Assembly (NCBI GenBank): GCA_016213405.1
Contig: JACRAM010000023.1
Span: forward strand, 1-39,902
DNA length: 39,902 nt
Source: Bacteroidota bacterium
GTDB taxonomy: Bacteria > Bacteroidota > Bacteroidia > Palsa-948
Direction of reading: 5' to 3'
Positions 16,665 to 39,779 of this stretch are shown in pieces (the stretch's first letter is position 1; every line of letters starts with the position of its first letter). Under the pieces are notes generated by a model. That model was not told the DNA's origin and ran no database searches. It saw only the letters and a program-made list of their open reading frames with translations. The position numbers were made by a program, and so were the translations under genes.

Positions 16665-17407
16665 AAACATACGGACTGATTGGTTTTCCTCTCTCTCACT
16701 CTTTCTCTCAAAAATACTTTACTGAAAAATTTAAGATTGAAAATATTCCAGATTGCGAATTCAGAAATTTTCTTTTAGATGACATAAATAAATTTCCAGA
16801 ACTCATTAAGTCTACACCATCGCTATGTGGATTAAGCATTACGATTCCTCATAAGCAGAATGTGATTAAGTTTCTGGATGTAGTGGATGCTTCTGCAAAA
16901 GAAATTGGCGCAGTAAACTGCATAAAACGATGGCAGATGGCGGATGGCGGATGGCGGATGGCTGGATACAACACAGATATTTTTGGTTTTGAGAAATCAT
17001 TAATTCCTCTTCTCAAATCTTATCATACACACGCTCTTATCTTAGGAACTGGCGGAGCAGCAAAAGCAGTAGTATATGTTTTAGATAAGCTTAAAATTAA
17101 ATTTAGGTATGTTTCAAGAACTATAAACCATTTATCTTACACAGAAATAAACCAAAAAATAATTCAAGAAAATTTATTAATTATCAATGCAACTCCTCTG
17201 GGAATGTTTCCTAACATTAATAACTATCCGAATATACCTTATAAGTTTCTTTCTTCAGCGCATTTGCTCTACGACCTAACTTACAATCCTGAAGAAACTC
17301 TATTCCTGAAAAAAGGGAAAGAAAATGGAGCGCAGGCAAAAAACGGATTGGAGATGCTACACCTGCAAGCTGAAAAGTCTTGGGAAATCTGGAACAGCCC
17401 ATCCTAA
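16661..17407 (+). CDS. aroE: Shikimate dehydrogenase
   Basis: 248 residues, slightly short for the family. It reduces 3-dehydroshikimate to shikimate with NADPH. The substrate site is seen in GFPLSHSFSQ, the catalytic Lys in SITIPHKQNV, and Asn/Asp in GAVNCI and GYNTDIFGF. The nucleotide loop is LILGTGGAAKAVVYVL, followed by INATPLGMFPN, YDLTYNPEET and NGLEMLHLQA. Between GAVNCI and GYNTD, where most homologues have a short variable turn, sits a stretch encoded by four tandem heptamers (16930-16964). It is translationally coupled to the DedA gene. Confidence 0.92.
   Translation: MKTYGLIGFPLSHSFSQKYFTEKFKIENIPDCEFRNFLLDDINKFPELIKSTPSLCGLSITIPHKQNVIKFLDVVDASAKEIGAVNCIKRWQMADGGWRMAGYNTDIFGFEKSLIPLLKSYHTHALILGTGGAAKAVVYVLDKLKIKFRYVSRTINHLSYTEINQKIIQENLLIINATPLGMFPNINNYPNIPYKFLSSAHLLYDLTYNPEETLFLKKGKENGAQAKNGLEMLHLQAEKSWEIWNSPS
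16930..16964. repeat. Heptamer array inside aroE
   Basis: ATGGCAG, then ATGGCGG three times, then ATGGCTG: an exact 7-nt period over 35 nt with a single arm. It encodes about residues 90-102 (RWQMADGGWRMAG) in a surface turn between two active-site motifs. Confidence 0.9.
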
Positions 17408-20470: not shown

Positions 20471-21823
20471 TTACGGGAATTTAATCCCGCTGCATTCAGG
20501 GCAATTCACCCATGGAACTGTTGCATTGTATTTTGAATTAATCGCACGTATAAATTCATTGGCAACAAGCACATACCCCTTTTGATTGGGATGATAACCA
20601 TCCAGTGAAAAAAATCCTCCGCTCACAAACTCCGCGTTGAAATCCTCTCCATCCCATTTTATTCCTGTTTGAACTTTTTTGAAATACGCATTCATATCCA
20701 CTAAGGCGAGTTTATATTTCTGCGCCATTACTGTAATTACATTATTGTAGTCAGCAATAATCTGGTTAACCACTTTAACCTCTGAAGTATCTAAAACATA
20801 TTGGTCTGGCATTGGAGTAAACGCTCCAAGAAAATTACATTTCATTGAATCTATCGGCACACTGAGCAAAATATAATCTCCGTTTCTCATTTTGCGGTAG
20901 CCGGGAGGTGGAGCCGTTGAAGCAGGGTCTTCTATCATAAAACCATTTTTTCCTATTTGAAAAGCTGTAGAACCGGAATATAAAGAATCGCCAAAGTATA
21001 GCATATTAAGAGAATCTTTAAGATTCCTGGTGAGTTCAAGACCATCCCAAGGTATAGTTGTGTAAAAAGGAAATGAAGTAAAATCAGGAATATTCGCAAT
21101 CACTCCCTGTGAGGGAAGTTGCGAAAGAACAGAGTCAAGTTTTGTATAGAAGGATGAAGGAGAAAGAATGGTAGTGCTATAAGCGCCATGACTCACATAA
21201 TCATAAACATCTTCCATGCCTGCCCACAAAGCAAAAAATGTTGGCTGTTGCGCTTTCGCATCGCTGAGCATAGTGGAGACTCCTGCGCTACTGGCAAAAC
21301 GAGCGTAATACGGATTGCTATTTCCTGAATTTCCGAGAGAAGAATTAGTATAATCAGAAATTTTCGCAAAAGGCACTCCGAAGTTTTGAAAGTTGCCGCT
21401 CTGATGCTGCAAATAAATTCCGGCAGAAGAAATATTGAAATCATCTTTTATGGGAAACAAAGAAGAAACTCCCTTGCAATCTGCTTTGAAACGAAGCTTG
21501 CTTGATGTTTCAAAATCACTTTCCCACGACTTTGGATTTAGTCCAAGTCCGGAATTATCCGGCATGAATGGCTGAACAAATTCAGCGGGTCCTCCTGCAA
21601 GGTGAATGTATTTTGCCAGTTGATAGGCAAGCGAATATTGCTGTCCGTCTTTATACAACGCGCCATCCTGATATCCAGCAATGAAACTTCCGCCTAATGC
21701 AATGAATTTTGAAAAGTCGGCATCGCCTGATGAAGGTTCAGGGTTTTTCAAATTGGGACGGCAAGTAGAAAGTAAGAAGTAAGAAGTAAGAAGTAAGAAA
21801 TAAATACAAATTTTAGTTTTCAT
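20471..21823 (-). CDS. SGNH/GDSL-like lipoprotein hydrolase
   Basis: 450 residues. The signal ends in the lipobox LLST-C21, so it should be a lipoprotein. After a short linker, FIALGGSFIAGYQDGALY resembles block I of SGNH hydrolases with S46 as nucleophile (GGS instead of GDS). Near the C-terminus, LDGYHPNQKGYVLVANEFI supplies D408 and H411, the usual Asp-x-x-His block V. Such enzymes cleave esters, often lipids or acetylated sugars. A CPEC motif lies in the last 15 residues. The signal region is encoded by tandem heptamers. It is the last gene of a minus-strand group with two T9SS esterases and a FadL-like porin. Confidence 0.8.
   Translation of the reverse strand: MKTKICIYFLLLTSYFLLSTCRPNLKNPEPSSGDADFSKFIALGGSFIAGYQDGALYKDGQQYSLAYQLAKYIHLAGGPAEFVQPFMPDNSGLGLNPKSWESDFETSSKLRFKADCKGVSSLFPIKDDFNISSAGIYLQHQSGNFQNFGVPFAKISDYTNSSLGNSGNSNPYYARFASSAGVSTMLSDAKAQQPTFFALWAGMEDVYDYVSHGAYSTTILSPSSFYTKLDSVLSQLPSQGVIANIPDFTSFPFYTTIPWDGLELTRNLKDSLNMLYFGDSLYSGSTAFQIGKNGFMIEDPASTAPPPGYRKMRNGDYILLSVPIDSMKCNFLGAFTPMPDQYVLDTSEVKVVNQIIADYNNVITVMAQKYKLALVDMNAYFKKVQTGIKWDGEDFNAEFVSGGFFSLDGYHPNQKGYVLVANEFIRAINSKYNATVPWVNCPECSGIKFP
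21764..21805. repeat. Heptamer array in lipoprotein signal-peptide codons
   Basis: AGTAGAA, four perfect AGTAAGA units, then AATAAAT: 42 nt with exact 7-nt period. On the minus strand it encodes residues about 7-20 (YFLLLTSYFLLST), nearly the whole hydrophobic core and lipobox. Confidence 0.92.
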
Positions 21824-21835
21824 GAGTCCACGCTT

Positions 21836-23125
21836 TTAGTCAGTGAAAATAATTTTTGTTGTAAATGATTCTCCTGCATCGGTTTTCAATTTCAGAAGAT
21901 AAATACCAGATTGAATTCCATTTCTCATGATGAGGTAATTATCACTGTTGAAATTAAATTCATTTATTTTTCTTCCCGTGATGTCAAGAATTTCCCCAAA
22001 AAAATTTCTTCCTTTCGTTTCCAATAACGTAAGAGTCAAATTTTCTGAAGCGGGATTGGGATAAAGAAATACTTTTTCATTAGTCAAAACAATATCATTT
22101 GTTCCTGCATTCAAAATACATGCAGGAGTATTGGGAAGGTTCGTAAGGCATAGAGGACTGTTCGTATAATCGACTGTATTAGATGGGATACATCCCATCT
22201 GTTTATAAAGAAAATCGCTTGCAAGAACGATGGTTGTATCAATATTAATGGTATCACCTGGAGAACCATGATCCTGTCCATAAAATGTATGTACAGGATT
22301 ATAAAGCCCTATGTGATTTGCGCGCTGAACCATTGTTCCAAGTCCGTGAATGATCATGATTTTGAAAGAGATTAAGTAAACAAAGTCCGAGCAGTAAGGA
22401 ACTGTATTATCATTATTTCCCTGCAAACTCACCATATTTTTATCACCCGGTTTCATCCAGCATGTATCGGCAATCGCACCACAAATATTAATAATCGCTT
22501 TTACATCGGAAGAATAACCGGAGTTGCCGCTGGCTCCTTCAAGTCCACCAACAATAGTTGTATCGATAGTAGATGGAATTTCTGCCGGCTGGTCAAGATA
22601 CGCATAATGCACTGCCATGATTGCTCCAGCAGAAGCGCCACCAATAAAAATCATGTTTGGATCTATTTTATAACTATTCGTGGTTGCAGCATCTTTCCTG
22701 AAGAAGCGGACGGATGCTTTCATATCCTGAGTTGCGCGCCAAACTGCTCTCATCGCATGAATGCTGTCAATCGGAAAACCTATTCCTAACCTGTAATTAA
22801 TTGACACAGCCACATAGCCGCGCTTCGCCATTTCCATACATATATATGACATATCCCTTTTATCTCCGCCCATAAAACTTCCGCCATGAGCCAAAATAAT
22901 TAACGGGCGAATTGCCGCAGTGTCACCGGTTGGCTGGTAAACATTCAATTTAAGTATTTCTGTCTGATTGTTGATATTTGTGTTCGAGCCATAAACAACA
23001 GTGCTGTCTATAGTCACATTACTAAACACAACCGTATCATACCGCGAAGAGCCGCAATAGTTCTGAGCGAAAAGAATGTAAGAAGTCAGAAGACAGGTGG
23101 CAGAAGTGATGAAAAGTTTTTTCAT
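21836..23125 (-). CDS. Secreted alpha/beta-hydrolase esterase with T9SS domain (copy 2)
   Basis: 429 residues. Signal peptide 1-20, then CGSSRYD. The hydrolase domain has the oxyanion motif AHGGSFMGGDKRD (80-82) and nucleophile elbow GGASAGA with S165, as in bacterial carboxylesterase/BD-FAE-type enzymes; the acid and histidine probably lie around YCSDF and YGQDHG. The end carries LYPNPASENLTLTL, ILDITGRKINEF and SGIYLLKLKTD, a type A T9SS domain. It is a clear tandem paralogue of 23137-24411, 11 bp upstream, with near-identical layout (AVWRATQDMKASVRFFRKDAATTN). The two were produced by gene duplication and have diverged. Confidence 0.87.
   Translation of the reverse strand: MKKLFITSATCLLTSYILFAQNYCGSSRYDTVVFSNVTIDSTVVYGSNTNINNQTEILKLNVYQPTGDTAAIRPLIILAHGGSFMGGDKRDMSYICMEMAKRGYVAVSINYRLGIGFPIDSIHAMRAVWRATQDMKASVRFFRKDAATTNSYKIDPNMIFIGGASAGAIMAVHYAYLDQPAEIPSTIDTTIVGGLEGASGNSGYSSDVKAIINICGAIADTCWMKPGDKNMVSLQGNNDNTVPYCSDFVYLISFKIMIIHGLGTMVQRANHIGLYNPVHTFYGQDHGSPGDTINIDTTIVLASDFLYKQMGCIPSNTVDYTNSPLCLTNLPNTPACILNAGTNDIVLTNEKVFLYPNPASENLTLTLLETKGRNFFGEILDITGRKINEFNFNSDNYLIMRNGIQSGIYLLKLKTDAGESFTTKIIFTD
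23078..23112. repeat. Degenerate heptamer array in esterase signal-peptide codons
   Basis: GTAAGAA, GTCAGAA, GACAGGT, GGCAGAA, GTGATGA: a 7-nt period with drift. It encodes about residues 5-16 of the 21836-23125 protein. Confidence 0.6.
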
Positions 23126-23136
23126 TCGGAGAGAAA

Positions 23137-24411
23137 TTATTTTTCTGTGAATATAACTTTCGTTGCAAAAAATTCATTCTCATTTGAAATTAATTTCAAG
23201 AAATAAATTCCTGCGGGAATGTTCCCTCTTTCAATAGTAATGTTATGTCCAGAAAAATTGATCTGCTGAATCTTTCTTCCTGTAATGTCGGTGATATCAG
23301 CAGAAAAAGTTTTTCCTCTCGCATCAGCAATCGTAAGCTGAAAGCTTTCTGAAGCCGGATTAGGATACAGGGAAACATTTTCAGCACCCAAAACTACATT
23401 CTCAATTCCAGTTACACCCGGAACACAGGTTTGATTGTTTATGTAAATGTCAGGGTTGCCGGAAGGAGTGCATCCTAATTTCTTGTACAGGAAATCGCTG
23501 ACAAGGTTACATGTTGAATCCATATTAGCGGCAAGAATATCCGCATCATGATCCAATCCGTAGTAAGTATGAATGGGGTTTTCAAGACCGATATTGAAAC
23601 AGCGAATGTGCATGTTGCCCCCACCGCTCACATACATAATAGGAAAACCAGAAACATAAATCATGGCGTAACAATAAGGAACAGTGCCGTCAACATTTCC
23701 CTGTGCGGTTACCATCGGCTCATCGCCCGGCTTTATCCATAAAGTATCGCCAACAGCTCCAGCAAGATTCAATACTCCATTTATCGCGGTAGAATATCCC
23801 GGGTTGCCGCTGCTTCCTTCTAATCCACCAAGAGTTGTAGTGTCAATAGCAGAAGGAACTTCAGATGACTGGTCGAGATACGCATAGTGAACTCCCATGA
23901 AAGCGCCTGCGGAATAACCTCCGGCAAAAACATAATTGGGGTCTACCTTATAAGTATTGGTTGTAGCAGCATCCTGACGGAAGAAACGCACTGCCGCTTT
24001 CATATCCTGCGTGGCGCGCCAAACAGCTTTCTGCGCGCTTGCCTGATTGATGGGAAAACCCATTCCTAACCGGTAGTCAATGGAAGCAACCACATAACCA
24101 CGCTTGGCAAAGCGTGTACAGAAATCAATGGCATACGAATCGGTTTTGGAGCCGCCAATAAAACTTCCTCCGTGCGCAAAAACAATAACGGGACGCATGG
24201 GAGCGACATCACCGGTAGGTTCATAAATATCCATCTTTAATATCGTCATCGTGCTATTCAAATTCAGGTTTTGTCCGTACGTAACATTGCTTGTAGTCGT
24301 CACAGTGCTGAACATTTCGGTATCATACCTTGATGAACCGCAATACGTTTGAGCCATAAGCGCTGTTGAGATGATGAGGGGCGATGTGAGAGTGAGTAGG
24401 ATTTTTTTCAT
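23137..24411 (-). CDS. Secreted alpha/beta-hydrolase esterase with T9SS domain (copy 1)
   Basis: 424 residues. Signal peptide 1-20 (ending LMAQ), then CGSSRYD as in its paralogue. The oxyanion loop is AHGGSFIGGSKTD; the nucleophile elbow is GGYSAGA with S167; a YGLDHDADIL segment near the end of the domain may hold the histidine. The C-terminus has LYPNPASESFQLTI, ITDITGRKIQQI and PAGIYFLKLIS, a type A sorting domain. It probably hydrolyses esters at the cell surface. It lies 33 bp downstream of the FadL-like gene and 11 bp upstream of the second esterase. Confidence 0.87.
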   Translation of the reverse strand: MKKILLTLTSPLIISTALMAQTYCGSSRYDTEMFSTVTTTSNVTYGQNLNLNSTMTILKMDIYEPTGDVAPMRPVIVFAHGGSFIGGSKTDSYAIDFCTRFAKRGYVVASIDYRLGMGFPINQASAQKAVWRATQDMKAAVRFFRQDAATTNTYKVDPNYVFAGGYSAGAFMGVHYAYLDQSSEVPSAIDTTTLGGLEGSSGNPGYSTAINGVLNLAGAVGDTLWIKPGDEPMVTAQGNVDGTVPYCYAMIYVSGFPIMYVSGGGNMHIRCFNIGLENPIHTYYGLDHDADILAANMDSTCNLVSDFLYKKLGCTPSGNPDIYINNQTCVPGVTGIENVVLGAENVSLYPNPASESFQLTIADARGKTFSADITDITGRKIQQINFSGHNITIERGNIPAGIYFLKLISNENEFFATKVIFTEK

Positions 24412-24443
24412 GTATATATGTTTATTTGTTTGTTTATTATTTC

Positions 24444-25682
24444 CTAAAATAAATATTCAATTGCAAACCCGGGAGCTACAGCCCTGGCTTTGTATGTGCC
24501 GCTGAAATCCTTTTCAATGTTTGTATCCGTGCGTTTCATTCCTTCTATATATAATAAAGAGAAATCAAGATTGAGCTTTTTGTTGATTCTCCACGATGCT
24601 CCCGCTGTTAATCCGATTCTGTTTGCATCAGGAGTTTCGGGAGTCAGATAACCATCTTGAACCGGAGTTTTGTCAAAATAAGCTCCACCTCTTAAAAATA
24701 TATTTTCTTTCAGATGATACTGCGCTCCTGCACGAACGATGAACGTATTTTTGTACATGCGTGCGGAGTGAACATCTTTGAGCAATTCCGTATTATCGGC
24801 AAAATCAAACGAAAGGGTGTCATACACTCCCCATCCGATATAATTTATATCCAGCGCGAGTTTTATTTTTTCATTCAGGACATAACCAAAGCCAAACGTT
24901 GTAGTGGAAGGAAGCGTAAGAGTAGCAACAAATGTTGTGCTGGGAAAAGAATCTGCAAGTGCTGAAGCTACATTGAAATCAGCAGTGCCGTTTTCCATTT
25001 TTAGTTTTACAGAAGATCGGTAATCCAGCCCGACAGAAAATTTTTCATTTGGTTTGAAATAAATTCCCGCATTATATCCATAGCCATTTGCTGAACCCTG
25101 AAGCGATGCGGAGCCATATTTTCCCATGGTATCCTGAATAGGAACTCCCTGCGATAAGCTGAAATCTCCTTTGGCAAAAACAAATCCTGCACCAACTCCA
25201 AGTTTGTCATTAATCTTATAAGATAAAGTCGGCTGGAAGAAAATTGCTTTCAAATCTATTTCGCGAAGAAGAAATTGTCCTTTCCAATCACTGGGCCATT
25301 CTTCGCGACTTCCGAAGGGAGTGTAAATTGCCAGTCCAAAATTAAGTTTGTCAGCTTTTTTTATTTTTCCGACAGCATAAACAGAAAAAGGTGTTCCTAC
25401 ATGATGAACCATTTCTGTAGAGTAAATCCCTGGAGCAGGTTCTAAATAAACTGTTCGCGGAATAATGAAACTTGCACCTATCTGCACCAAACGAATTGAA
25501 TCAAGAAAAGAAGTTGCACCCGGATTGAAAAGCAGAGAAGCGCCATCGAGCAGGAGTCCTGTGCCAGTATGCCCCATGCCCATTTGTTTTTGTCCCTGAA
25601 GGTTTACCTGAAAGCCGCCAGCGAAAACCAGTTGGCAGTTGGCGGTAAGCAGTAGGCAAAAAGAAAAAAACAACTTCTTCAT
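24444..25682 (-). CDS. FadL/OmpP1/TodX-type outer membrane transporter
   Basis: 412 residues from ATG 25682 (MKKLFFSFCLLLTANCQLVFA signal peptide). The longer frame to 25736 runs through a dispersed hairpin and is rejected. After cleavage the N-terminal FQVNLQGQKQMGMGHTGTGLLLDGASLLFNPGA is the typical hatch-domain start of FadL proteins; the rest is alternating beta strands such as YNAGIYFKPNEKFSVGLDYRSSVKLKM, and the C-terminus ends in an aromatic (AIEYLF). FadL porins import long-chain fatty acids or other hydrophobic compounds. Lying upstream of three hydrolases, it may take up their products; that link is inference. Confidence 0.88.
   Translation of the reverse strand: MKKLFFSFCLLLTANCQLVFAGGFQVNLQGQKQMGMGHTGTGLLLDGASLLFNPGATSFLDSIRLVQIGASFIIPRTVYLEPAPGIYSTEMVHHVGTPFSVYAVGKIKKADKLNFGLAIYTPFGSREEWPSDWKGQFLLREIDLKAIFFQPTLSYKINDKLGVGAGFVFAKGDFSLSQGVPIQDTMGKYGSASLQGSANGYGYNAGIYFKPNEKFSVGLDYRSSVKLKMENGTADFNVASALADSFPSTTFVATLTLPSTTTFGFGYVLNEKIKLALDINYIGWGVYDTLSFDFADNTELLKDVHSARMYKNTFIVRAGAQYHLKENIFLRGGAYFDKTPVQDGYLTPETPDANRIGLTAGASWRINKKLNLDFSLLYIEGMKRTDTNIEKDFSGTYKARAVAPGFAIEYLF
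25630..25662. repeat. Heptamer array in FadL-like signal-peptide codons
   Basis: CAGTTGG twice, CGGTAAG, CAGTAGG, CAAAA: a 7-nt period. On the minus strand it encodes about residues 9-18 (LLLTANCQLV). Confidence 0.85.
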
Positions 25683-25693
25683 AATGTATTGTC

Positions 25694-26572
25694 TTAACGC
25701 CCTCTCCTTGAGGAGAGGGTTGGGGTGAAGCGACATTCTTTATTAACCGTTTCTTCAAACATTTTCATTAATTCTTTCGTGTTCTTTCCAACTTTTCCGT
25801 TACCAATTTTCATTTTATCAATCTGAACTACCGGAGTTATGCCACGTGTGGTTCCGGTGATAAAACTTTCAGAGCACCAAGTTAATTCTTCTTTCAATAC
25901 CTCGCGGATTTCAAGCTTGAATTTTTTCAGCGTAATATTAGTAATCAACTTTCGGGTAATACCCAGCAGCATTCCTTCATCTGCAGTTACTAATGTGTTT
26001 CCGTGAAACAGAAAAAAATTATTTCTGGTTGTTTCAAGAATTTTTCCATCTGAACAATACAGTGTGTCTTGTGCTTTAGCTTTTCTTCTTTCATCGGCAA
26101 GGCGGATCGCTGTGAGATAATTTGTCGTCTTCACTCTTGCCATTTCCCTGCTATGTTCGTGAAGCATTAGTTTGATTCCTTTCTCTGACCACCATTCAGG
26201 ATACAGAGGCAAATCTTCCATGAGAATAAATAAATTCGGTTTTACTGCAGGAAGATATGAGTCGAGCGAGTAGCCACCTGTGAGAAGAAGTCTGATTCCA
26301 AAATCTTTTTTAACTGAAACTTTGTTTTTCTTTAGAAGAGAATGAATCGCAGAAATAATTTCTTTTTTCTTTAAAGGAAGTTTCAACATCATTCCATTGG
26401 CAGAATTTTCAAACCTATCAAGATAATCGTTGATTCGGAAAGGAACACCATAATATGTGCGCATGTAATCAAACGCGCCATACCCTCGAAGCATTACTAA
26501 ATCAGTTATCCCGACTTTGATTTCATTCTTGCGAAGAATTTTTCCGTTTGAATAACAATAATAGTTCATCAT
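25694..26572 (-). CDS. Class IV aminotransferase (branched-chain / D-amino acid / ADC lyase family)
   Basis: 292 residues from ATG 26572 (MMNYYCYSNGKILRKNEI). The frame extends to 26734, but those codons read through the inverted repeat at 26579-26668. Fold-type IV signatures are FDYMRTYYGVPFRINDYLDRFENSA, the PLP lysine region ARVKTTNYLTAIRLADERRKAKAQDTLYCSDGKILETTRNNFF, and SFITGTTRGITPVVQID. Whether it acts on branched-chain amino acids, D-amino acids or aminodeoxychorismate cannot be read off. The last 14 residues (RFTPTLSSRRGR) are encoded by the hairpin at 25700-25719 and look like a replaced C-terminus. It probably heads the minus-strand group. Confidence 0.85.
   Translation of the reverse strand: MMNYYCYSNGKILRKNEIKVGITDLVMLRGYGAFDYMRTYYGVPFRINDYLDRFENSANGMMLKLPLKKKEIISAIHSLLKKNKVSVKKDFGIRLLLTGGYSLDSYLPAVKPNLFILMEDLPLYPEWWSEKGIKLMLHEHSREMARVKTTNYLTAIRLADERRKAKAQDTLYCSDGKILETTRNNFFLFHGNTLVTADEGMLLGITRKLITNITLKKFKLEIREVLKEELTWCSESFITGTTRGITPVVQIDKMKIGNGKVGKNTKELMKMFEETVNKECRFTPTLSSRRGR
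25700..25719. repeat. Hairpin CCCTCTCC-TTGA-GGAGAGGG
   Basis: A perfect 8-bp stem with a 4-nt loop between the aminotransferase and FadL-like genes; it supplies the last codons of the former. The sequence with its trailing TTGGGGTGAAG is, from memory, a common dispersed repeat in Bacteroidota drafts. Confidence 0.7.
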
Positions 26573-27766: not shown

Positions 27767-29764
27767 ATGAAGCTTTCAGTCATCATAGTTAACTACAACG
27801 TTGAGCATTTTCTCGAACAATGTCTGCATTCTGTAGAGAAGGCGGTGAAAAATATTCCAACAGAAATTTTTGTTGTTGATAATAGTTCCGTGGATGGCTC
27901 GATTGAAATGGTGAAGAAGAAATTTCCTGAAGTAAAAATCATAGCCAATGAAAAGAATCTTGGTTTTTCCAGAGCGAATAACCAGGCAATCAAAGAAGCA
28001 AAAGGTGAATACGTTTTGCTCCTGAATCCGGACACAGTTGTACAGGAAGATACTTTTGAGAAGACGATAAAATTCATGGATGAGAAAAAAGATGGTGGCG
28101 CGCTGGGCGTAATGATGTTGGATGGCAAAGGAAATTTTCTTCCTGAATCAAAGCGCGGACTCCCTACTCCTTCGGTTGCGTTTTATAAAGTGTTCGGACT
28201 TTCATTTTTATTTCCAAAATCAAGAACATTTGGCAAATATCATCTGGGCTATCTCGATAAAAACAAAACTCATGAAGTAGATGTGCTCGCAGGCGCGTTC
28301 ATTCTCATTCGAAAATCTGTTCTTGATAAAATCGGTTTGCTCGATGAAACTTTTTTTATGTACGGAGAGGATATTGATTTGTCCTATCGCATTACGCTTG
28401 CGGGCTATAAGAATTATTACTTCTCCGAAACGCGCATTATTCATTACAAAGGAGAAAGCACCAAGAAGAGTTCGGTGAATTATGTGCTGGTGTTTTATAA
28501 CGCCATGGCAATCTTTGCTAAGAAACATTTTGCGAAGAACCAGGCGACTATGTTTTCTCTGCTGATATATTTTGCAATCGCCTTTCGGGCAGGAATCGCT
28601 ATTGTAAAAAGATTTCTGAAACAAATATTTGTTCCGCTGCTGGATGCCTCCATTCTTTATGCCGGATTATATTTCATAAAAAATTATTATGAGCACAATG
28701 TAAAAAATGTTGCCTATCCTGAAAACCTTGTACTGGCTGCATTTGGGATATATGTTTTCATCTGGCTCTTCTCGGTTTTTCTCAGCGGTGGCTATGACAA
28801 ACCCATTCGCCTTCAAAAAATTGTGCGCGGAATTTTCTGGGGAACAGGAATCATTCTTGCTATGTATGCACTGCTTCCTGAAGCATACCGTTTCTCGCGT
28901 GCGCTTATTCTCATCGGCACGGGATGGGCAACCATCTCCATGCTTGCAACACGGATGCTGTTTCATCTTTTTGGAATAATGGGCTTCCATCCCTTCGGGA
29001 AAGATTTTCTTCTTGAAGGAAGCACCAGCAAGCGATTGGCAATTGTGGGAAGTGAAGAAGAATACAAAAGAGTGTTCGCGCTTATAAAAGAATCTTCTCT
29101 CAAATCAAACTTTATCGGCTTTGTTAATTCAGATGCTGGTAACTGGCAACTGGCAACTGGCAAACAGCAAGAAACATATTTAGGAAAGTTCTCTCAGTTA
29201 AACGAAATCATAGACATCTACAAAATTGACGAAGTAATTTTCTGCGCGAAGAATATTTCTTCAGAAAAAATTATTGACGCGATGAGTTTGCAGGGAAATG
29301 AAGGAGTAGAATTTAAAATCGCTCCGCAGGAAAGTTTTTCCATCATCGGAAGCAATTCTATTGACACGGCTGGCGACCTTTACACCCTTGATGTGAACTC
29401 GATGAACAAACCTTCCAATCGCAGAAAAAAGAGAATCATAGATATTTTCTTTTCGATACTTTTTGTTTGCCTGCTTCCTGTTTTAATTTTCATTGTAAAA
29501 AATCCGTTGAACTATATTGCAAACATTTTCAAAGTGCTGTTTGGTTTTAATTCGTGGGTGGGATACGGAGAAAATCTGAATTCTGAATTCAGAATTCAGA
29601 ATAACAGCCGGAAAGGAATTTTATCTCCTGCTGATTCCTTGAAATCAAATCACGTGACTCAAGAAATTGCCGAACGACTGAATAAAATTTACGCGAAGGA
29701 TTACAGCGTACGCAATGACATGAATATCCTGCTAAAGGGAATTAGAAACCTAGGAAGAGCGTAA
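27767..29764 (+). CDS. GT2 glycosyltransferase fused to a degenerate sugar-phosphate transferase-like module
   Basis: 665 residues. Residues 1-240 are a GT-A family 2 domain: SVIIVNYNVEHFLEQCLHS, VDNSSVDGS, NLGFSRANNQAI, LLLNPDTVV, and YGEDIDLSYRI. Membrane helices follow (about 265-400). Residues 420-545 look like the Rossmann-type region found before polyprenyl-phosphate sugar transferases (RLAIVGSEEEYKRVF, KIDEVIFCAKNIS). From 555 on, RRKKRIIDIFFSILFVCLLPVLIF resembles the membrane anchor of those transferases, but the catalytic part that should follow is reduced to about 80 unusual residues. Two repeat insertions interrupt this half (residues about 457-468 and 603-612). The GT2 part is likely active in envelope polysaccharide synthesis. 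Confidence 0.82.
   Translation: MKLSVIIVNYNVEHFLEQCLHSVEKAVKNIPTEIFVVDNSSVDGSIEMVKKKFPEVKIIANEKNLGFSRANNQAIKEAKGEYVLLLNPDTVVQEDTFEKTIKFMDEKKDGGALGVMMLDGKGNFLPESKRGLPTPSVAFYKVFGLSFLFPKSRTFGKYHLGYLDKNKTHEVDVLAGAFILIRKSVLDKIGLLDETFFMYGEDIDLSYRITLAGYKNYYFSETRIIHYKGESTKKSSVNYVLVFYNAMAIFAKKHFAKNQATMFSLLIYFAIAFRAGIAIVKRFLKQIFVPLLDASILYAGLYFIKNYYEHNVKNVAYPENLVLAAFGIYVFIWLFSVFLSGGYDKPIRLQKIVRGIFWGTGIILAMYALLPEAYRFSRALILIGTGWATISMLATRMLFHLFGIMGFHPFGKDFLLEGSTSKRLAIVGSEEEYKRVFALIKESSLKSNFIGFVNSDAGNWQLATGKQQETYLGKFSQLNEIIDIYKIDEVIFCAKNISSEKIIDAMSLQGNEGVEFKIAPQESFSIIGSNSIDTAGDLYTLDVNSMNKPSNRRKKRIIDIFFSILFVCLLPVLIFIVKNPLNYIANIFKVLFGFNSWVGYGENLNSEFRIQNNSRKGILSPADSLKSNHVTQEIAERLNKIYAKDYSVRNDMNILLKGIRNLGRA
29135..29169. 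repeat. Heptamer array inside the glycosyltransferase
   Basis: GCTGGTA, ACTGGCA three times, AACAGCA: exact 7-nt period, single arm, encoding about residues 457-468 (AGNWQLATGKQQ). Confidence 0.9.
29575..29600. repeat. Perfect 26-bp palindrome made of heptamers
   Basis: TCTGAATTCTGAA followed directly by its reverse complement. Read as units it is CTGAATT twice then CAGAATT and CAGAATA, that is two inverted heptamer arms with no loop. It lies in the degenerate C-terminal part of the glycosyltransferase. Confidence 0.92.
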
Positions 29765-39598: not shown

Positions 39599-39779
39599 AC
39601 TGATGTTACGCACAAGTCATTTTAAAAAAAAATATTCAATATTCAATACGCAATGTTCAATGTTCAATGAATTGCACTGTTTTTTTTACTTGAGAATTGA
39701 GAATTGAACATTGAATACCTGCCTGCGCAGGCAGGTTGAACATTTTTGCGTAAGGTGAGTGATTAACTGATGTTACGCA
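39599..39779. repeat. Composite repeat: 14-bp direct repeats around inverted heptamer arms and a perfect palindrome
   Basis: ACTGATGTTACGCA occurs at 39599-39612 and 39766-39779. Between them: left heptamers ATTCAAT twice, ACGCAAT, GTTCAAT twice (39634-39668); right heptamers TTGAGAA twice, TTGAACA, TTGAATA (39690-39717); then the perfect 20-bp palindrome ACCTGCCTGC plus its inverse (39717-39736); then one more heptamer TTGAACA (39736-39742). The palindrome thus interrupts the heptamer array. Confidence 0.88.

Follow-up and report, generated by a model that had tools for sequence, protein, structure and literature searches.

Tandem arrays of seven-nucleotide units are abundant in the uncultured Bacteroidota genome that contains the window (the whole 39,902-nucleotide stretch of DNA analyzed here), and within genes they accumulate in the code for signal peptides (SPs). 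Most likely, this pile-up marks places where the exact sequence hardly matters rather than sites of on/off switching. The fuller account, which we consider probable, is that a lineage-specific process generates heptamer arrays and that selection removes these arrays from coding sequence unless the residues concerned are disposable, as is the case chiefly in SPs. The genome comprises 3.65 Mb in 127 contigs, and its closest named relatives are unclassified Bacteroidetes MAGs.

Heptamer arrays in the window

The preliminary description had pointed to arrays in the hydrophobic SP cores of three genes of one group and had offered two readings, namely that SPs merely tolerate arrays or that arrays are a tuning device whose copy number changes export or, through frameshift, switches expression on and off. 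We scored the window arrays against 500 shuffles each (Table 1). The array of the gene starting at 21823 is clear; it consists mostly of TTCTTAC on the coding strand and encodes IYFLLLTSYFLLSTC, lipobox included. That of the gene starting at 25682 is moderate and eroded but significant, despite falling under the threshold of the genome survey. In the gene starting at 23125 there is only a marginal trace, which was not flagged by TRF. The description of these three genes was confirmed in part. The paralogous esterase gene served as an internal control, and the score of its array-free SP lay at the shuffle mean (363 of 500 shuffles matched it). Because of the families to which their mature parts belong, both esterases and the FadL-type gene product count as secreted or envelope proteins whatever their N-termini look like.

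The mature-protein arrays of the window, in the shikimate dehydrogenase-family and glycosyltransferase genes, lie in loops that differ in sequence and length among congeners; at one such loop, two congeners encode different, NHQP-containing peptides. The window also carries a palindrome, CCCTCTCCTTGAGGAGAGGG, followed by TTGGGG (25694-25736), between the FadL gene and a class-IV aminotransferase gene. It encodes the C-terminus of the aminotransferase (TPTLSSRRGR), and its core pattern, which is REP-like, occurs at about 10 sites in the 1.19-Mb sample described below.

Table 1. Genes and heptamer arrays of the window
Feature	Position	Strand	Remarks
GDSL-lipase family lipoprotein gene	20471..21823	-	PF00657; orthologues in four congeners
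Heptamer array, SP core and lipobox of the GDSL-lipase lipoprotein	21763..21803	-	41 nt; 0/500 shuffles
BD-FAE-type esterase with T9SS tail	21836..23125	-	PF20434, PF18962
Eroded, marginal heptamer run in esterase SP (CLLTSYIL)	23078..23103	-	4/500 shuffles match score
Paralogous BD-FAE esterase with T9SS tail, array-free SP (internal control)	23137..24411	-	Family assignment and shuffle test
FadL/Toluene_X outer-membrane protein gene	24444..25682	-	PF03349; ATG at 25682 used as start
Degenerate array of CTGCCAA-like units, FadL-type SP (CLLLTANCQL)	25629..25669	-	0/500 shuffles
Heptamer array, variable loop of shikimate dehydrogenase-family gene	16929..16962	+	RWQMADGGWRMA
Heptamer array, variable loop of glycosyltransferase gene 27767-29764	29136..29163	+	NWQLATGK
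Second array of glycosyltransferase gene 27767-29764, variable C-terminal loop	29575..29602	+	NSEFRIQN
Intergenic heptamer array	39631..39669		
Second intergenic heptamer array	39690..39715		

Abundance and placement in the genome

The survey covered 80 stretches of the window's own genome (1.19 Mb including the window), of which four were picked for matches to the window's array and the remainder were taken in contig order, many of them being contig ends. With a tolerant detector, blind to arrays shorter than 18 nt, 150 heptamer arrays were found as against 0-2 in simulations, which corresponds to about 126 per Mb and, by extrapolation, to roughly 460 in the genome. Perfect arrays of at least three copies numbered 47 at period 7 and 0 in two order-4 Markov simulations; periods 5, 6, and 8-15 gave at most four each, and period 4 gave 32, as simulated. 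With the tolerant detector, octamer (period-8) arrays in the sample were also far above chance (47 vs 1-5). The units recur, since the 150 arrays fall into 82 distinct classes compared with a mean of 134 in random draws (never below 124 in 200 trials), and the consensus shared by all units is only slightly above that of random sets (4.07 vs 3.4-3.9). Whether in coding or in intergenic DNA, arrays are most often 27-33 nt long, and their lengths are similar across SP, interior, and intergenic positions.

Coding DNA holds 95 of the 150 arrays. Counting over the first 35 codons of SP genes, we found 37 arrays in 36.6 kb (1.01 per kb) where random placement would put 4.6, the SP heuristic itself leaning partly on hydrophobicity supplied by the arrays. 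The first 35 codons of non-SP genes contain five arrays (0.079 per kb), three or more of them in what look to be SPs missed by the heuristic, and the density is 0.056 per kb in the remaining coding DNA and 0.058 per kb in all coding DNA outside SP N-termini. The odds ratio for SPs against other coding DNA, computed in bins of 35 nt, was 18 (p about 3e-29). The preliminary description had proposed such a survey of positions, with arrays equally common at random coding positions as the outcome that would speak against it, and the distribution in this genome is far from equal. Within SPs, the density is highest over codons 10-20 (1.90 per kb). Both gene starts and SPs were called heuristically, and the genomes are MAG assemblies, one per species. 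By the same heuristic, a positive n-region, a hydrophobic core, a cleavage site or lipobox, and an envelope protein downstream were found at the array genes, and SP identity is backed by the families of the mature parts and by array-free orthologous N-termini.

Intergenic DNA has 0.37 arrays per kb, SPs being 2.8 times denser (p about 8e-6). Intergenic arrays are densest just before starts (0.70 per kb within 50 bp) and just after stops, with 1.25 per kb after the stop codons of non-SP genes. Internal TM-like segments, which are similarly hydrophobic to SPs, hold a single array in 42.6 kb (0.02 per kb), and this one can be read as an SP whose start was misassigned. Thus, a hydrophobic coding sequence does not by itself attract visible arrays, and the likelier common factor of array sites would be a segment indifferent to its sequence. 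As for other periods, the SPs of this genome contain no 6-mer array and one 9-mer array, and the octamer density is the same in SPs as in intergenic DNA. When three genomes were pooled, the SP bias of heptamers exceeded that of octamers (p = 0.017).

Two further observations concern individual loci. One SP (L012:16928-17013) has two arrays, AAAGTAC in the n-region and GTACTTT/GTACATT-like units in the core, which seem to be mutual inversions. Some interior arrays lie near YPNP-type motifs of T9SS C-terminal tails, which are fast-evolving (for example, L042:5778-5808, L055:3920-3954, and L057:13212-13241).

Strand and encoded peptide

The coding strand is pyrimidine-rich in 26 of 27 SP-core arrays, and SP-core units are more strand-asymmetric than intergenic units (p about 6e-8). 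The hydropathy of SP-core arrays is +1.6 as read and -1.8 when inverted, while three n-region arrays read hydrophilic and interior arrays are balanced and mildly hydrophilic. This pattern is what would be left if arrays were filtered by the peptide that they encode. Since 7 is not divisible by 3, a stop-free array gives one and the same cycle of seven residues whichever frame of its strand is read, and one pyrimidine-rich unit therefore yields a core rich in Leu, Phe, Ser, Thr, Tyr, and Cys. SP code is pyrimidine-rich, and a small lag-7 excess stays after the arrays are removed.

Arrays in congeners and in other genomes

SPs were denser in arrays than intergenic DNA also in two congeners, with 0.48 vs 0.19 per kb in G006 (five SP arrays) and 1.07 vs 0.046 per kb in G001, a 23-fold difference based on few arrays (9 vs 2). 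Of the 53 congener orthologues of 14 SP-array genes, 17 have an N-terminal array, often of another unit (LptE, GDSL, and others), and one of these is low-complexity; in most of the array-lacking orthologues, an SP devoid of arrays precedes a mature part that starts at the same place. Some SP arrays are common to several species and eroded. In the FadL SPs, an eroded CTGCCAA-type array is common to the window's genome and G003, the SP of G004 is array-free and of the same length, and TTTTTAA and TTATTCC units are present in G006 and G001, respectively. The GDSL orthologue of G006 (L263) has a longer SP region in which other insert-like repeats (PARHLLLNILTAGG and SVAEV) stand beside a TTCTTAC array, and the LptE orthologue of the same species (L245), which has an SP array, also has a different tandem repeat just upstream.

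Among the matches listed for (CTTCTTA)x3, every one of the nine distinct loci of the genus reads as an SP, six according to the heuristic and three on inspection by eye, and so does one locus from a different family; for four further Bacteroidia genomes, a check of the ORFs revealed no coding frame that spans the array. Dozens of matches to (CTGCCAA)x3 occur in a few unrelated genomes of other classes of the phylum (G712, G571, G484, and G466), and none of the loci examined there scored as an SP. Beyond the genus, 313 kb of FadL neighborhoods held 10 heptamer arrays and none of them in SPs; accordingly, the SP bias is demonstrated for the genus only.

Origin and fate of the arrays

A lineage-specific process that favors period 7, the period dominating the counts, would make arrays of about 30 nt, perhaps by slippage-like amplification. 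Purifying selection may purge them from most coding DNA, as the low density outside SP N-termini relative to intergenic DNA suggests. In genes, arrays would survive at disposable residues and above all in SPs, to which their location, strand bias, and replacement among congeners point. An SP may need no more than a hydrophobic stretch of appropriate length without stops, so that selection in SPs would retain readings of this kind, and SP arrays would erode and be replaced over species-level time. The first of the two readings offered at the outset, that SPs merely tolerate arrays, is supported in that the mature-protein arrays checked lie in variable loops, units differ between species, and the hydrophobic strand is the one read. 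However, pure tolerance predicts an SP density no higher than the intergenic one, and the excess in the window's genome and in G001 argues against it; the octamers, which have no SP excess over intergenic DNA, also count against it. The SP excess could come from constraint on the short intergenic regions, from slower loss under selection for hydrophobicity, or from reuse of arrays as SP material.

Active reuse would mean that SP cores gain or keep arrays more than neutral DNA does and that export tags are rewritten in this way. The SP density above the intergenic level, the stronger SP bias of heptamers than of octamers, the recurrence of arrays with differing units in one and the same SP of several species, the strand asymmetry of SP-core units, and the nine listed (CTTCTTA)x3 loci are consistent with reuse. 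Nevertheless, slower loss under hydrophobicity selection or intergenic constraint would look identical, and arrays in n-regions, after cleavage sites, and in variable loops are tolerated alike without an SP-core role; we consider active reuse unlikely. It is possible, though doubtful, that arrays of about 30 nt act as an engine of SP turnover in heptamer-rich lineages, new units replacing cores and being gained or kept above the level of neutral DNA.

The second reading makes the arrays contingency loci, in which gain or loss of a heptamer in an SP shifts the frame and toggles the protein as CTCTT does in Neisseria opa. Since opa shows that an SP repeat can switch, such a mechanism is possible for SP heptamer arrays, and location and logic are as in opa: in silico, adding or removing one unit truncated the product in all 32 SP-array genes (36 arrays, arrays ending beyond codon 36 being excluded). 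However, as every one-unit change truncates, frequent slippage would be costly, and the hosts include LptE (PF04390), GldD, PorP/SprF, and SurA-like PPIases as well as hydrolases. The SP-core arrays are not the long, pure, slippage-prone tracts of opa-type contingency loci either, with a median of 2.9 perfect copies, a maximum of 5.9, and only three arrays with at least five. SP arrays are often imperfect and not longer than intergenic ones, some are eroded and shared between species, and alternative-frame ATGs upstream of them show no excess (1/32 vs 40/318). In favor of switching, the LptE orthologue of G006 has no in-frame ATG beside its SP array, and the nearest and sole adjacent ATG is off by a one-heptamer amount; start and assembly are uncertain at this locus, and start choice, an assembly error, and an off allele cannot be told apart. 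Nothing in the SP-array data demands switching. Copy-number switching is not needed to explain them, the tuning device or frameshift switch of the preliminary description found no support, and contingency loci are quite unlikely.

It is very improbable that the arrays are regulatory elements near start codons that SPs hold through start proximity alone. Intergenic arrays are indeed densest within 50 bp of starts, and according to the excerpted text of PMC4679880 the TAACTGA repeats of Beggiatoaceae sit just upstream of start codons; however, arrays are equally dense just after the stops of non-SP genes, many different units occur, and the strand of SP-core arrays follows the encoded peptide. 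Start proximity alone is rejected by the nearly array-free N-termini of non-SP genes. Finally, we give almost no credence to T-rich repetitive code of hydrophobic segments seeding slippage so that arrays form by composition alone, because, for all the pyrimidine richness and residual lag-7 excess of SP code, no more than one array lies in internal TM-like segments (unless selection purges them there) and octamers lack an SP excess over intergenic DNA.

Comparison with known repeat systems

The preferred account, a heptamer process with clearance outside disposable residues, would make these genomes a natural experiment on SP requirements, in which near-arbitrary repeats of a heptapeptide appear to serve dozens of envelope proteins that are unrelated to one another. 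The units that survive would reveal what passes as an SP, and arrays would also point to disposable coding DNA. Heptamer-rich lineages make the dominance of period 7 and the length near 30 nt testable. A repeat in an SP is by itself no evidence of phase variation.

Heptamer repeats are already known, and we found no earlier report of their concentration in SPs; literature pairing signal peptides with repeats, searched with most subscription journals outside coverage, gave no report of heptamers in SPs. The arrays described here belong to the heptanucleotide simple sequence repeats, period 7 being far above chance and above other periods. In the excerpted account of Mrazek et al. 2007 (cited in PMC4679880), heptamers outnumber all other classes of longer bacterial repeats, and slippage favored by a 7-nt interaction with the polymerase is proposed. 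Repeats in coding DNA favor multiples of three in that account, whereas in the genome studied here coding DNA contains many non-triplet heptamers, with a concentration in SPs.

The excerpt of PMC4679880 also reports TAACTGA direct repeats in Beggiatoaceae, Cyanobacteria, and some Bacteroidetes. As described there, they have one fixed unit and are mostly intergenic, with no SP link mentioned in that excerpt, in contrast to the many units and SP-rich distribution found here. Two exact copies of TAACTGA were absent from the 1.19-Mb sample, as was any array with this unit. The mostly intergenic placement upstream of starts is not seen either, because most of the arrays are coding and the intergenic ones also follow stops. 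Like the heptamers of Xanthomonas and Nostoc (PMC4692102), the arrays are many per genome and variable between related species; unlike the arrays of the window's genome, those heptamers are G-rich, over-represented mainly between genes, and discussed as G-quadruplexes.

In position, the SP arrays resemble the CTCTT repeats of Neisseria opa genes, which lie in signal-peptide code and switch expression (PMC4534519, PMC5354566). As in opa, a non-triplet tandem repeat stands in SP code and one unit shifts the frame. Unlike in opa, the unit has 7 nt, the arrays are short and often degenerate, and they are spread over many unrelated genes, including LptE and SurA-like genes.
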